A DNA stretch of 11,496 bases, from assembly GCA_028293265.1 (NCBI GenBank), contig JAQGPB010000209.1:1-11496 (forward strand), in the 5' to 3' direction. The notes below the pieces were generated by a model. That model ran no database searches, had not been told where the DNA came from, and saw nothing but the letters and a program-made list of their open reading frames with translations. Of the stretch, positions 2,283-7,660 are shown piece by piece. A program made the position numbers and the translations under genes. Source of the DNA: Pedosphaera sp. Its GTDB lineage: Bacteria > Verrucomicrobiota > Verrucomicrobiae > Limisphaerales > Pedosphaeraceae. Every line of letters begins with the position of its first letter. Position 1 is the first letter of the stretch.

Positions 2283-2367
2283 GCGCTTATGGTGGAATTG
2301 GCAGACACGCTACTTTGAGGTGGTAGTGGGGCAACCCGTGCAGGTTCAAGTCCTGCTAAGCGCACCA
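2283..2367 (+). tRNA. tRNA-Leu, anticodon GAG, with encoded CCA
   Basis: This folds as a class II tRNA. The acceptor strands GCGCTTA (2283-2289) and TAAGCGC (2357-2363) pair fully and are followed by discriminator A and CCA. The anticodon arm is CTACT / TTGAGGT / GGTAG (2310-2326) with GAG at 2317-2319, which decodes CUC and CUU. A long variable arm GGG-GCAA-CCC and the T arm GCAGG-TTCAAGT-CCTGC follow. The D region TGGTGGAATTGGCAGACACGC and the long variable arm are typical of leucine tRNAs. The gene appears intact, and its 3' end is the probable integration target of the element that starts immediately after it. Confidence 0.96.
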
Positions 2368-2436: not shown

Positions 2437-2465
2437 AGACTGAGAGTCAAAACGTGAAATTCCCC

Positions 2466-3734
2466 ATGAAGATCAAGTTTCGTGGGCAAGTTCTCGCCAA
2501 AATTTATGGCAAGAGCAAGGGCTACTCTTTTTACCGCCTTTGCTATTACACTGCCGGCAAGAGACATGTTCGCAGTTTCCGCACCTACAGCGAAGCGAAG
2601 AAGGAAGGTGACACCAAAGCCCAGGAATTGCACGAAGGCTCGCAAGCTGCCGCATTCACCGGTCCACAATCCCGCGATGCGCTGGCCGCGATGCAACGCC
2701 TTCAAACCTTCTGCCAGTCCACCGGACGCCGCGTTTCTCTTTTGGGCGCTGTGTCGGAGTATGTCGAGGCGTACGCAAAGTTGAACGGCCACACATTGGC
2801 CGAGGCGGTTGCCGGTTTTGTGGTCAATGTTGCCAGCGTCTTGCGGAAAGACATCAAAGAGGCCGTCGCAGAATTCATTGCAACCGACACGCCGCGCACG
2901 AAGGATAGCGAAGGCCAGCGGGCGCAACTCTCCGCCAAGTACGCCTACAACCGTCAGATTCAACTCAACAAATTCGCGGACGCATTTCCTGGCAATGCCG
3001 TCTCTGATCTCACCAAAATCCACCTGGATGCCTTCATTGGGGGACTGAGCGACTTTTCATCCAAGAGCCGCAACCACTACCGCGCCGCCGTCCGCCAATT
3101 TCTGCAATGGGCCGTCCGCAAAGACTATCTGACGGCGACCCATCGCTTGAACGAGGCTGACGCGATGCGGCCTGAACAAGCCAACACCGCCGAAACAGAA
3201 TTTTACACACCCAAAGAATTCCTGTCATTGCTGTCTGCCGCCAACGATACCCTGCGCCCGATGCTCGCCATTGGCGGACTTGCCGGACTCCGCACCGCTG
3301 AACTCATTCGTTTGGAGTGGTCAGACGTTTGGCGAGTGCCTGGCTACATCGAGGTTACTGCTCGAAAGAGCAAGACCCGCGCTCGCCGGCTTGTAGAAAT
3401 TTGTCCCGCCTTGGCCGCTTAGCTTGAAATTTTCCGCAAGCGGACCAGCGGCAAGCTGTGGACTTTGCACGAAATCACCTTCCAGCAACGTTTTGTTGAA
3501 CTGTGCGAGAAAGCGAAGGTCAACCGCAAAACCAACGGGCTGCGCCACGCCTTTTGCACCTACCATTTCGCTGCGCATGCCAATGAAAACCTGACCGCCG
3601 CGCAAGCAGGCAACTCGCCTGCCATGATTCACCAGCATTACAAAGGACTCGCCACCAAAGCGGACGCGGAAAAGTGGTTCAATGTAAAACCAACAAGCCC
3701 CGCGAATATCATCCAGCTTGCCGCAAAAAAGTGA
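2466..3734 (+). pseudogene. Tyrosine recombinase (phage-type integrase) interrupted by an in-frame TAG
   Basis: The reading frame is continuous from 2466 (ATG; a GTG at 2454 is also possible) to TGA at 3732-3734, except for one TAG at 3420-3422. Read through, it is 422 residues. The N-terminal arm and SAM-like core-binding domain lie at about 135-225 (RQIQLNKFADAF, then NHYRAAVRQFLQWAV). The catalytic domain has Arg-I in GLAGLRTAEL (R276), the beta-hairpin Lys in ARKSKTRARR (K301), Arg-II in GLRHAF (R360) and the nucleophile in HQHYKGLATK (Y392). The usual His of HxxR is Asn (357), and the usual His/Trp after Gly is Asn (383). The TAG at codon 319 falls in ...CPALAA*LEIFRKR, where a Trp codon TGG is the likely ancestor. 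Without readthrough the product lacks Arg-II and Tyr and would be dead. It sits directly after tRNA-Leu, as expected for the enzyme that inserted the element. Confidence 0.85.
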
Positions 3735-4680: not shown

Positions 4681-4708
4681 GCTCAAATGAGCAAAAAATT
4701 ATTTGAGC
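4681..4708. promoter_or_regulatory. 7-bp inverted repeat over the start codon of the HTH gene
   Basis: GCTCAAA (4681-4687) and TTTGAGC (4702-4708) are exact inverted arms, 14 bp apart. The ATG of the small HTH gene (4687-4689) overlaps the left arm. It could be an autoregulatory operator or an mRNA hairpin covering the start codon. This is an inference from symmetry and position only. Confidence 0.35.
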
Positions 4709-4893
4709 AACCGGGTTTCCTTAACGAGAAACAACTCCTGGAGAAAGTGCCCATCAGTCGCCGAACCCTATTCGGCTGGCGCGAGGCCGGCAAAATTCCT
4801 TGCGTGCGACTGCCTGGAAGTCGTCGCGTATTATTTCACTGGCCAAGTGTCGAAGCCGCCCTTTTGCGTAGTCAGAAGGAAGTAGCAAAATAA
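4687..4893 (+). CDS. Small MerR/AlpA-like helix-turn-helix protein, probable excisionase or regulator
   Basis: A 68-residue protein with the layout of the excisionase-type winged helix-turn-helix (HTH_17 / MerR-like): GFLNEKQLLEKVPISRRTLFGWREAGKIPCVRLPGSRRVLFHWPSVEAALLR. The first helix is ..EKQLLEK, the recognition helix is SRRTLFGWREAG, and the wing is KIPCVRLPGSRRVLF. Proteins of this size and type act as recombination directionality factors or as activators in integrated elements. It lies 71 bp after the unknown gene and about 100 bp before the primase, on the same strand. No good ribosome site is visible, but an inverted repeat covers its start. The fold is clear; choosing Xis over transcriptional activator is an inference from context. 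Confidence 0.85.
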   Translation: MSKKLFEQPGFLNEKQLLEKVPISRRTLFGWREAGKIPCVRLPGSRRVLFHWPSVEAALLRSQKEVAK

Positions 4894-4895
4894 AA

Positions 4896-4920
4896 CCCGC
4901 CTGCCATGTGGCAGTGCGGG
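4896..4920. terminator. GC-rich hairpin after the HTH gene
   Basis: CCCGC-CTGCC (4896-4905), loop ATGT, GGCAG-(T)-GCGGG (4910-4920): ten paired bases with one bulged T, starting three bases after the HTH stop. A T-rich tail follows the stem only on the minus strand (TTTTATTTT), so it is a textbook intrinsic terminator in that direction and a weaker one in plus. The loop holds the ATG at 4906, which argues against that ATG being the primase start. Confidence 0.5.
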
Positions 4921-4989
4921 GTATTGGAACTGGACATTTCAATATTACCACTGGCCAGCATTGGCGCAAGGCAAACCAACTTGCCATTC

Positions 4990-7458
4990 ATGCCAAATTC
5001 TCCCTTGGACGAAGCTAAACAATGCCTACCGCTGCCCGCGCTCATGGCGCGATACGGCTATGGCGACCGTGCCAAAAAATCCGCGCGGTGCATGTTTCAT
5101 GACGATTCACGCAACTCGTTTTCCATCTATCAACGTGACGATGGCACCTGGGCTTGGAAATGTCATGCCGTTTGCGGTGGTGGCGATGAAGCCGACTGGC
5201 TCGCCACGCTGCTGGGCTTAAGCAACGCCGATGCCTGCCGCGAATTCATCCACCTCACCGGAACCACGGCACCGTCCCTGCCGCCATTGACACCGGCCAT
5301 ACCATCCACCCCACGACCGTTCGACTGGCCATCATGCGTTGCTGCTCTCACCCCCGAACATCGCGAAAAACTTGCCCGCTGGCGTGGTTACGCACCCGAA
5401 TTTGTCGAATGGTTGCATGGGCAAAACCTCATTGGGTTGTTCAACGGTGCGCATATCGCTTTCCCCGTCCATGATTCTCAGGGCAACGTCATTGGATGCC
5501 ACTACCGAATCAAAGAAGACGGTTCCTGGCGTTATCATCCCACCGGCACGCACACCGCCCCCTTCATCATCGGTGACACTACAACGGCGGACACTCTTCT
5601 CGTGGCCGAGAGTCAGTGGGATTTGTTGTCCGGCCTGGCTTCCTTGGATTGGCATATCCAACCGTTGGCCCACACCGCTGCCATCGCTACGCGCGGCGCG
5701 AGTAATGGACGCCTGCTTGCGGGCGTGTGCCCATCGGATGCCGTCCTTTATGCGTTCGCGCAGAATGACGAGGCCGCGCAAAAGTGGCTTGCTGCCGTCG
5801 CCTCTAGTTGTGGCTGCAAATGCGTTCACGTCCTAACACCTGGACCTCATAAAGACATGAACGATTGGGCACGCGCAGGCGCGACCGGTGATGACATCCG
5901 TCGTGCCATCCTCGAAGCACGGCCAGTGATCGCACCCGCTCCGCCCGATCTCCGTGCTGCGCGGGTGAAAAATGTCTCAAAACCTGTCCGCCTGTTTCCC
6001 GACGAACATGACGAACCTGAACCCGCGCCGTTCCCTGTGGACGCTTTCCCACCGGTAATGGCATCCATGGTCGCAGGCGTGGCCCGAACCGAGCGCGTCC
6101 CGCTTGCCCTGCCCGCTGTGTGCGCGCTGGGCGTGGCTTCCGCTGCCATAGGTGCAGGCTTGGAAGTCGTCAGCGGCCCAAATCGGGTCACGCGGGCCAA
6201 TCTTTATTTGCTCGCCAGCGCGGACTCCGGGAGCGGCAAATCGGAGACTTTCCGCATTGTCGCGGCCCCCTTGGTGGACTACCAGACACGCCTGATAGAA
6301 ACATGGCGGCTGGAAACGTCACCGAAGCTCCAATCCGAATTGCGCGTTCTCGACTCGGAAATTGCAACTCTCGAAAAAAAGGCTGCAAAGACCACTGAGC
6401 CGTTTGAGCGCGACCAGATAGTCGGCGAGCTAAAATTCAAGATCGCCCGCAAGGACGACCTGACGCGAGTCGCCGCGATGCCCTGCATCATCGCGCAAGA
6501 TGTGACCACGGAACGCCTTGCCGTACTTTTACGTGACAACCGTGAAGTGGTTTTTTCGGCCAGCGCCGACGCGAGGAAGCTGGTGGACAATTTGATGGGG
6601 CGTTACAACCCCGGCAAAATGACGGACGAGTCGCTCTACCTCTCTGCCTATTCCGGCGATTTGGTCCGCGTTGATCGCCAGGGCCGCGACCCCGTCGTGC
6701 TCAACAAGCCTTGCCTATCTCTTTGCTGGTTCGCCCAACCCGATTTGCTTGCGACCATGCTCGACGAGGAAAGTCTCTCAGTAGGAGGTTTCCTACCTCG
6801 CCTCCTGGTCTGCGACACAAAAGCAACACCGCACCGCATCGAAGGTGAAGAGCGAGTTCTTTCCGAGTCCGTTCGCGATCAGTGGAACCGGCGCATTACT
6901 GACCTGATCGCCACCTTCCGCGTCGCCGACAATCCGCACCGGCTAACTCCGACGCCGGAAGCGGTCGCCATACTGAATGATTATCACAACCGTATCGTTG
7001 ACCGCCGTGCCAACGATCTGGCGGATGTGGGTGCCTTCGCGGCACGCTACGCGGAAAACGCCTGGAGGGTTTCGGTCGTGCTTCACGGGACGCTTTGGGG
7101 AACGGACGCCGGTAAGGAACCACTGACAGCCGAAACCGCCGCCAATGCGGTCCGCATCGTGGAATGGTTTGCGGCAGAACAACAGTCGGTCCTCGCCAAG
7201 GGCCGTCACGCCGCCGCCGTCAAAATCGAGGAAGAAGTGCTCAAACTACTGAAAACCAACCTCCAGCGAACAGGACGGGACTACATCACCGCCCGCGACG
7301 TTCTCCGCGCCCGCATCATTAGCAGTGCCGCCGGCGCTCGTACCCTCTTGGGCCGCGTGGAGGGCTATGGTGTACTCACTGGCGAGGACATCACTCCGGC
7401 CCATGGTGGCAAGACCACGCGCGTTTACCGGGCCGTCACAAATCCAGTGCCGGAATGA
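4990..7458 (+). CDS. Element replication protein: CHC2 zinc finger - TOPRIM - DUF3987 ATPase
   Basis: A primase/ATPase fusion of 822 residues. It would synthesise primers and remodel DNA for replication of the element. Near the N-terminus is a CHC2-type zinc finger (C34, H37, C58, C62: RCMFHDD...WKCHAVCGGGDEADW). A TOPRIM-like domain follows: VAESQWD with E207, AFAQNDEA near 255-262, and HKDMNDWA near 287-294. After a proline-rich linker comes a DUF3987 domain with the P-loop SADSGSGKSETF (K417) and the block SLCWFAQPDLLATMLDEESLSVGGFLPR. The C-terminus (VLKLLKTNLQRTGRDYITARDVLRARI) resembles a winged helix. The ATG at 4990 was preferred over 4906 because 4906 lies in a hairpin loop and its extra 28 residues look non-native. 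DUF3987 proteins are typical of phages, satellites and integrative elements. The 3' end overlaps a mini-ORF by ATGA. Confidence 0.87.
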   Translation: MPNSPLDEAKQCLPLPALMARYGYGDRAKKSARCMFHDDSRNSFSIYQRDDGTWAWKCHAVCGGGDEADWLATLLGLSNADACREFIHLTGTTAPSLPPLTPAIPSTPRPFDWPSCVAALTPEHREKLARWRGYAPEFVEWLHGQNLIGLFNGAHIAFPVHDSQGNVIGCHYRIKEDGSWRYHPTGTHTAPFIIGDTTTADTLLVAESQWDLLSGLASLDWHIQPLAHTAAIATRGASNGRLLAGVCPSDAVLYAFAQNDEAAQKWLAAVASSCGCKCVHVLTPGPHKDMNDWARAGATGDDIRRAILEARPVIAPAPPDLRAARVKNVSKPVRLFPDEHDEPEPAPFPVDAFPPVMASMVAGVARTERVPLALPAVCALGVASAAIGAGLEVVSGPNRVTRANLYLLASADSGSGKSETFRIVAAPLVDYQTRLIETWRLETSPKLQSELRVLDSEIATLEKKAAKTTEPFERDQIVGELKFKIARKDDLTRVAAMPCIIAQDVTTERLAVLLRDNREVVFSASADARKLVDNLMGRYNPGKMTDESLYLSAYSGDLVRVDRQGRDPVVLNKPCLSLCWFAQPDLLATMLDEESLSVGGFLPRLLVCDTKATPHRIEGEERVLSESVRDQWNRRITDLIATFRVADNPHRLTPTPEAVAILNDYHNRIVDRRANDLADVGAFAARYAENAWRVSVVLHGTLWGTDAGKEPLTAETAANAVRIVEWFAAEQQSVLAKGRHAAAVKIEEEVLKLLKTNLQRTGRDYITARDVLRARIISSAAGARTLLGRVEGYGVLTGEDITPAHGGKTTRVYRAVTNPVPE

Positions 7459-7586
7459 CGAACTATGGAAAATGCGACCTCTCCCCTCCCCTATGCCAGC
7501 CGTGCAAATCGCAACTGTTTCATCCCCCGATGCCTTTCGATTGTCACGATTGGCACGATTGTCACAGGCCCGATAGCCAAAATTGA
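7455..7586 (+). CDS. 43-residue Cys/His-rich mini-protein (possible)
   Basis: The ATG at 7455 overlaps the primase stop (ATGA), and the frame stays open to TGA at 7584-7586. The product has four Cys in its middle and C-terminal parts (LCQPCKSQLFH..., then DCHDWHDCH), a pattern that could bind zinc. The DCH-DWH-DCH segment is encoded exactly by the three 9-bp repeats at 7538-7564, so it may be a by-product of the iterons rather than a selected protein. The stop-start overlap favours translation; the small size and overlap with a DNA element argue against certainty. Confidence 0.4.
   Translation: MTNYGKCDLSPPLCQPCKSQLFHPPMPFDCHDWHDCHRPDSQN
7538..7564 (+). repeat. Three contiguous 9-bp repeats, left arm of the iteron dyad
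   Basis: CGATTGTCA, CGATTGGCA, CGATTGTCA follow each other with no gap (7538, 7547, 7556). The middle copy differs at one position. The block begins 80 bases after the primase stop and is mirrored at 7634-7660. Confidence 0.9.
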
Positions 7587-7633
7587 GCTTTTTTGATGGA
7601 AGGAAAAAACTTCACTTTCTTCTTCTGGCCCCG

Positions 7634-7660
7634 TGACAACCGTGCCAATCGTGACAACCG
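7634..7660 (-). repeat. Three contiguous 9-bp repeats in reverse orientation, right arm
   Basis: TGACAACCG (7634), TGCCAATCG (7643), TGACAACCG (7652) are contiguous. Reverse-complemented they are CGGTTGTCA, CGATTGGCA, CGGTTGTCA: the same order as the left arm, with an A-to-G change in the two outer copies and the middle copy identical. Confidence 0.9.

Follow-up and report, generated by a model that had tools for sequence, protein, structure and literature searches.

The origins of phage-inducible chromosomal islands (PICIs) contain iteron sets that flank an AT-rich region (PMC6092414). In the staphylococcal cassette chromosome mec (SCCmec), the gene for the helicase Cch2 is followed by direct-repeat iterons that are bound by the isolated C-terminal domain of the protein, and binding of two hexamers has been proposed (PMC7581432). 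The alpha protein of phage P4 fuses a primase with the initiating helicase (PMC7145576) and has a cognate ori site (PMC6092414), while the phage-inducible chromosomal minimalist islands (PICMIs) of Vibrionaceae are small elements with an integrase, AlpA, and a primase recognised by DUF3987 and DUF5906 profiles, and deletion of this primase lowers copy number (PMC10803314). For DUF3987 itself, a helicase role in mobile elements has been predicted (PMC5862659), and Pfam still describes the family as being of unknown function. Here we analyse an integrative element in an 11,496-nucleotide stretch of Pedosphaera sp. DNA (contig JAQGPB010000209.1; hereafter, the window), in which the gene for a CHC2/Toprim-type primase fused to a DUF3987 (MCM-like AAA+) helicase is followed by two mirrored arrays of 9-bp repeats. 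With a probability of roughly 0.77, we read these arrays and their spacer as the replication origin of the element, or its initiator-loading part, bound by a C-terminal winged helix of the DUF3987 protein.

The precedent for this reading comes from the Staphylococcus aureus pathogenicity islands (SaPIs) and PICIs. As in these islands, the window presents an integrative element with an integrase and a small regulator, and a primase and helicase (here fused) with, directly after them, an AT-rich region that lies between two iteron sets; the iterons are predicted to be read by the C-terminal domain of the helicase (PMC6092414, PMC7581432). Layout and precedent together point to a putative origin, in agreement with the first-pass annotation of this DNA, which had placed a candidate origin of replication beside the primase gene. 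The window differs from SaPIs and PICIs in using a DUF3987 helicase, and the iterons at DUF3987 loci differ in being contiguous and mirrored with a 9-bp period, often with a third set. In a Foldseek search with the window protein, the SaPI5 primase-helicase (7ola) appeared only at rank 38 (E 0.057), and no genes for phage induction, interference, or packaging were named among the proteins scanned (9 with Pfam, 8 with PHROG) in the window, where no right attachment site was found. SCCmec shares the order of helicase gene and iterons and differs in its D5/Primase_Cterm-type helicase, its three 5-nt iterons (AAGTG), and its separate polymerase-based primase (PMC7581432). PICMIs, whose primase may match either the DUF3987 or the DUF5906 profile, resemble the window element in small size and in the combination of integrase and primase. 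They integrate at fis; the window element lies beside a tRNA-Leu gene, which speaks against integration at fis, and a pair of attachment (att) sites was not found. Iterons go unmentioned in the main text of the PICMI report (PMC10803314). Phage P4 offers a primase-helicase fusion with a cognate site; assignment of the window protein to the P4 alpha type was rejected, DUF3987 being its sole Pfam family. The working principle is already known from SaPI/PICI and SCC elements. What appears new, judging from a literature search of partial coverage that found no paper joining DUF3987 with iterons, is the link to DUF3987, the occurrence of the mirrored arrangement with its 9-bp period in different phyla, and the residues proposed as candidates for recognition.

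Mirrored 9-bp arrays 3' of DUF3987 genes

Array B (7538..7564, plus strand) begins 80 bp past the stop codon of the primase-DUF3987 gene and consists of three gapless 9-mers, CGATTGTCA, CGATTGGCA, and CGATTGTCA. After a spacer of 69 bp (7565..7633), a predicted melting region with T6 (7589-7594) and A6 (7604-7609) tracts, array C (7634..7660, minus strand) follows as TGACAACCG, TGCCAATCG, and TGACAACCG on the plus strand, again without gaps, which corresponds to CGGTTGTCA, CGATTGGCA, and CGGTTGTCA in the minus-strand reading. The two arrays are complementary at 25 of 27 positions; none of 20 dinucleotide-shuffled versions of the window yielded an inverted pair of 27-base arms that was complementary at more than 21 of 27. 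AT content between the repeat cores is 57%, vs 40% in the flanks. All of the geometry noted by the first-pass annotation (mirrored 3+3 gapless 9-mers, their distance and complementarity, the T6 and A6 tracts) was confirmed, and its emphasis on an identical change in the outer copies carries little weight, as this linker position varies freely in relatives. One further exact unit, a single CGGTTGTCA at 6534-6542 within the DUF3987 coding sequence, is probably a coincidence.

Among relatives of the fused primase-DUF3987 gene, most of which (32 of 37) we take from their record titles to be Verrucomicrobiota, the closest being presumably subdivision 3 / Limisphaerales, triple 9-mer arrays lie 3' of the gene in L002-L007, L009, L010, and L012-L014, with a degenerate form in L011; in L008 the contig ends at the gene, so that arrays cannot be judged. 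Eleven window-type loci (window included), picked for visible arrays, with the degenerate L011 and a second copy in L003 left out, align as array B, a spacer of 63-67 bp, and array C, with spacer AT contents of 52-69% and flanks of 36-45%. An extra array A, in the orientation of C and upstream of B, was detected in 8 of 10 relatives; in L002 and L013, weaker forms of it are visible by eye. The second L003 copy (432-553) is an inverted B-spacer-C unit near the other end of the 8670-bp contig, several kb from the first, and no terminal direct repeat was found in that contig. In L003 and L004, a small cysteine-containing frame of ~80-90 residues begins nearly at the DUF3987 stop and precedes the arrays; the DNA of this region is similar in L002, L005, L007, and L010, and in the window, L012, and L014 the gap is too short for such a frame.

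The window repeat type occurs almost exclusively at DUF3987 loci. A degenerate triple pattern yielded 24 matches in 9 of the 14 relatives' genomes, of which 22 lie 3' of a DUF3987 gene at a distance of no more than 700 bp and the other two form the second L003 copy; the reversed control pattern yielded none. The random genomic scatter that the first-pass annotation had named as fatal to an origin was therefore not seen. With two mismatches allowed in 320 genomes of one order, 35 of 44 matches fell at DUF3987 loci; the remaining 9 (7 places) equal in number those of the reversed pattern.

Other DUF3987 lineages carry unrelated 9-mers at the same place 3' of the gene, among them GCTACACTC in L009 and L022, GTGCAACTC in L015, L209, and L211, GTGACACTC in L138, L208, L210, and L212, CTGCGAAAC in L020, L021, and L223, GAATCGCAR in L230, GAGTCGCAA in L227, where arrays are present, and CTGACAGAA in the Streptomyces plasmid NZ_CP107792.1. 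On this plasmid, whose annotation includes a separate primase/polymerase, all ten TGACARAA units lie at 14539-14794, at and just past the end of the DUF3987 gene. Mirrored period-9 arms within 450 bp of the stop exceeded the 99% level of controls in 45 of 81 DUF3987 loci, compared with 1 of 500 control pieces of matched 450-bp length, and 25 of the 81 surpassed every control. Passing loci came from Verrucomicrobia-centred searches (28 of 50), from the class that includes Rhodanobacter and its relatives, which we treat as Gammaproteobacteria (16 of 27), and from other sources (1 of 4), the loci being drawn mainly from Verrucomicrobiota- and Gammaproteobacteria-centred searches. Periods of 6, 7, 8, 10, 11, and 12 exceeded their own 99% levels in 4, 2, 4, 6, 10, and 2 of 81 loci, and simple tandem period-9 matches pointed the same way (24 of 51 loci vs 5 of 564 control pieces). 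From this test, L037 was set aside as a duplicate of the L228 gene, L008 and L159 for scant 3' sequence, L241, L257, and L260 because no frame was found at the match, L231 and L262-L265 for the weakness of their matches, and Verrucomicrobia-centred loci where the profile match ended before position 740. The first-pass annotation had proposed looking for the same 9-mer layout downstream of homologous DUF3987 genes; it was borne out at many loci, and arrays are missing after some. Two loci have repeats of other placement or period: in L029 (4433-4677), some 27 tandem GTAGCGCAG-type 9-mers precede the DUF3987 gene, or occupy its start, rather than following it, and in L253, which fails the test, a run of ACACATTA-type units with a period of 8 lies in the first 110 bases past the stop.

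The C-terminal winged helix as candidate reader

Across 13 array-bearing loci (some of them short contigs), the DUF3987 protein is the window protein that recurs in all 13, followed by a distant integrase in 11, the excisionase-like protein in 1, and the HTH_3 protein in none. Binding of the repeats by the other helix-turn-helix (HTH) proteins of the window is unsupported, as their relatives are missing from most array loci. Within the DUF3987 protein, repeat type tracks the C-terminal winged helix, to judge from sequence covariation. In 32 loci (L230 not included), repeat similarity correlated with identity of the C-terminus (hmm 651-824) at 0.58 and with that of the core at 0.55; the partial correlation was 0.25 for the C-terminus given the core (reached in 0 of 1000 permutations) and 0.04 for the core given the C-terminus. 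A natural mosaic is provided by L004 and L007, the primase halves of which are 72% identical, the helicase-core segments 63, 36, and 53%, and the last 124 positions 77-86%, while their origins share 77% DNA identity over 729 columns. In L011 (8986-9534), L012 (6365-6928), and L013 (9052-9597), the C-terminal domain is a separate gene, which begins no more than ~10 bases from the stop of the helicase gene and lies ahead of the arrays.

Comparison of repeat classes yields candidate recognition residues. The 18 GTGAC-type proteins share 57 invariant columns (hmm 341-824), of which two differ in at least two of the four GTGCA-type proteins, and both are changed in all four: T795 (R, R, R, S) and R797 (A, S, S, T). 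Random relabelling gave even one such class-separating invariant column in only 1 of 2000 trials. R801 is invariant in the 22 GTGAC/GTGCA proteins and is Q or K in two GCTAC-type proteins, and at the more variable R812 the four GTGCA-type proteins all have H, as does 1 of the 18 others. All four residues fall within a predicted winged helix (residues about 795-843; 7288..7434, plus strand; mean pLDDT, a per-residue confidence score, of 88.4), the candidate reader of the iterons; the best Foldseek matches include winged-helix regulators, none below E 0.02.

The origin reading is favoured because the layout is conserved, the window repeat type is nearly confined to DUF3987 loci, the 9-bp period recurs across phyla, the arms lack compensatory pairing in the loci compared (see below), and repeat type covaries with the C-terminus. 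In the mechanism that we infer, the DUF3987 protein would bind the contiguous 9-mers downstream of its own gene through its C-terminal winged helix, and the mirrored sets would place a pair of helicase assemblies, facing opposite ways, around the A+T-rich spacer, as in double-hexamer loading. The spacer would melt, the self-loaded MCM-like motor would unwind outward, and the fused DnaG-type primase would then prime replication. We lean, with less assurance, toward a broader claim, that DUF3987 proteins as a whole are self-loading MCM-like initiator helicases, a large family that spans phyla, each with its own mirrored period-9 origin directly 3', in which T795, R797, R801, and R812 of the winged helix follow the 9-mer type. 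A cis-acting period-9 site gives DUF3987 a concrete, testable partner and would allow replication origins to be located in many unannotated integrative elements and satellites; if the reading is true, sequence alone could be enough to find the origin of such an element and to guess its specificity class. Natural pairs with similar protein backgrounds and different 9-mers would make a protein-DNA recognition code directly testable, and the combination of an MCM-like fold with mirrored sites could serve as a simple bacterial model of double-hexamer loading.

A proposed origin weighed against its rivals

Of the other explanations, the one that survives best is that the arrays, bound by the DUF3987 protein or by a different protein of the element, serve not initiation but regulation, copy control, or partition. 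Plasmid iteron arrays can also serve as copy-control or incompatibility sites, and binding and replication are predictions here; use as an operator, which the first-pass annotation had listed as an alternative, is possible as well. We nevertheless consider a role other than initiation improbable, given that the window-type arrays flank an AT-rich spacer of near-fixed length, as in PICI origins (PMC6092414), and that DUF3987 alone among the proteins of the window recurs at every array locus compared.

The first-pass annotation had also entertained a large terminator hairpin, and the inverted repeat might more generally act as RNA or single-stranded DNA, be it a terminator, an attenuator, or a single-strand origin. 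The window copy is indeed predicted to fold strongly (z -6.8 as DNA, -8.0 as RNA), and several split-gene loci have their two arms only a short distance apart, directly past the stop. A hairpin would have no need of 9-bp tandem units, however, and the window has no T-run past the right arm. When the B-C arms of the 11 window-type loci were compared at 11 variable columns (A-B arms and split-gene loci lying outside this test), arms of the same locus paired at 0.702, vs 0.703 between loci (P 0.58). The cores at these loci are conserved while the linkers drift independently, as expected of a protein site. Linker pairing between the two arms is incomplete in L209 and L211, where the GTGCAA cores are mostly kept. 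This lack of compensatory change makes a hairpin very unlikely.

Chance arrival of a dispersed or mobile repeat family, like repetitive extragenic palindromes (REP) or miniature inverted-repeat transposable elements (MITE), for which the second, inverted L003 copy might be cited, is scarcely credible given the concentration of matches at DUF3987 loci, the reversed-control level of the remainder, and the fact that other lineages have 9-mers of unrelated sequence in this position.

Several observations weigh against reading the arrays as an origin recognised by the DUF3987 C-terminus. In the window itself, a clear array A is absent and the integrase frame is interrupted. L001, the protein of which is 70% identical to that of the window, has no arrays; its 3' end looks replaced, with the family-profile match ending at position 815 of 824 and the frame continuing. 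More broadly, 36 of 81 loci fail the period-9 test. Among these, arrays are visible by eye beyond 450 bp in L006 and L016 and in short or one-armed form in L213, L242, and L172, and others, such as the YfjI loci of E. coli and Citrobacter (L232, L234), show none by eye; Streptococcus phage Javan191 also failed. A few passing loci look low-complexity (L247, L250), and the GC-skew minimum of the Streptomyces plasmid lies at 17.1-18.0 kb and not at its arrays (14.5-14.8 kb). As to the reader, the covariation tests control for phylogeny only by conditioning on the core, and the class comparison relies on four GTGCA-type proteins and on class labels that we assigned. GTGAC and GTGCA proteins are told apart by four columns, of which 558 and 669 lie outside the winged helix, and R801 is one of four columns that mark GCTAC proteins, along with 447, 619, and 782. 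T795 and R797 fall in helix alpha2 rather than in the helix that usually serves recognition, and the L014 origin is closer to that of L002 (80%) than its C-terminus is (50-69%).

The element around the arrays

The gene order in the window is tRNA-Leu, integrase frame, an unassigned frame, a 68-residue excisionase-like protein, and the primase-DUF3987 protein. The tRNA-Leu gene (2283..2367, plus strand, anticodon gag), the sole Rfam match in the window at gathering cut-offs, is the likely integration target; no second copy of the tRNA 3' end that could mark a right att site was found within the window (best 24 of 45). The tyrosine integrase frame (2454..3734, plus strand; Pfam Phage_int_SAM_1, PHROG integrase) is split by an in-frame TAG at 3420-3422, with the remainder in phase up to 3734. 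Because of this stop, firing after excision is doubtful for the window copy, which, with the right att site also not found, may be an immobile relic with an origin that never fires after excision. The excisionase-like protein (4687..4893, plus strand) matches phrog_66 (E 5.7e-5) and had no match in a Pfam scan.

The predicted initiator (4906..7458, plus strand; 850 residues) matches primases over its N-terminal half and DUF3987 over the C-terminal one, where residues 398-764 match PF13148 with E 1.2e-57 and 196.2 bits against a curated cut-off of 27; PHROG primase and helicase families and DnaG/T7 primase and MCM folds support the assignment. An exact 24-mer of the window repeats gave no matches in viral contigs. 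Of 94 viral relatives found, 80 were kept, and these share mainly the primase half, with 77 of 80 matches ending by residue 369. Relatives of the helicase half in phage and plasmid collections are distant, comprising 4 and 17 records, respectively, all below 60% identity.
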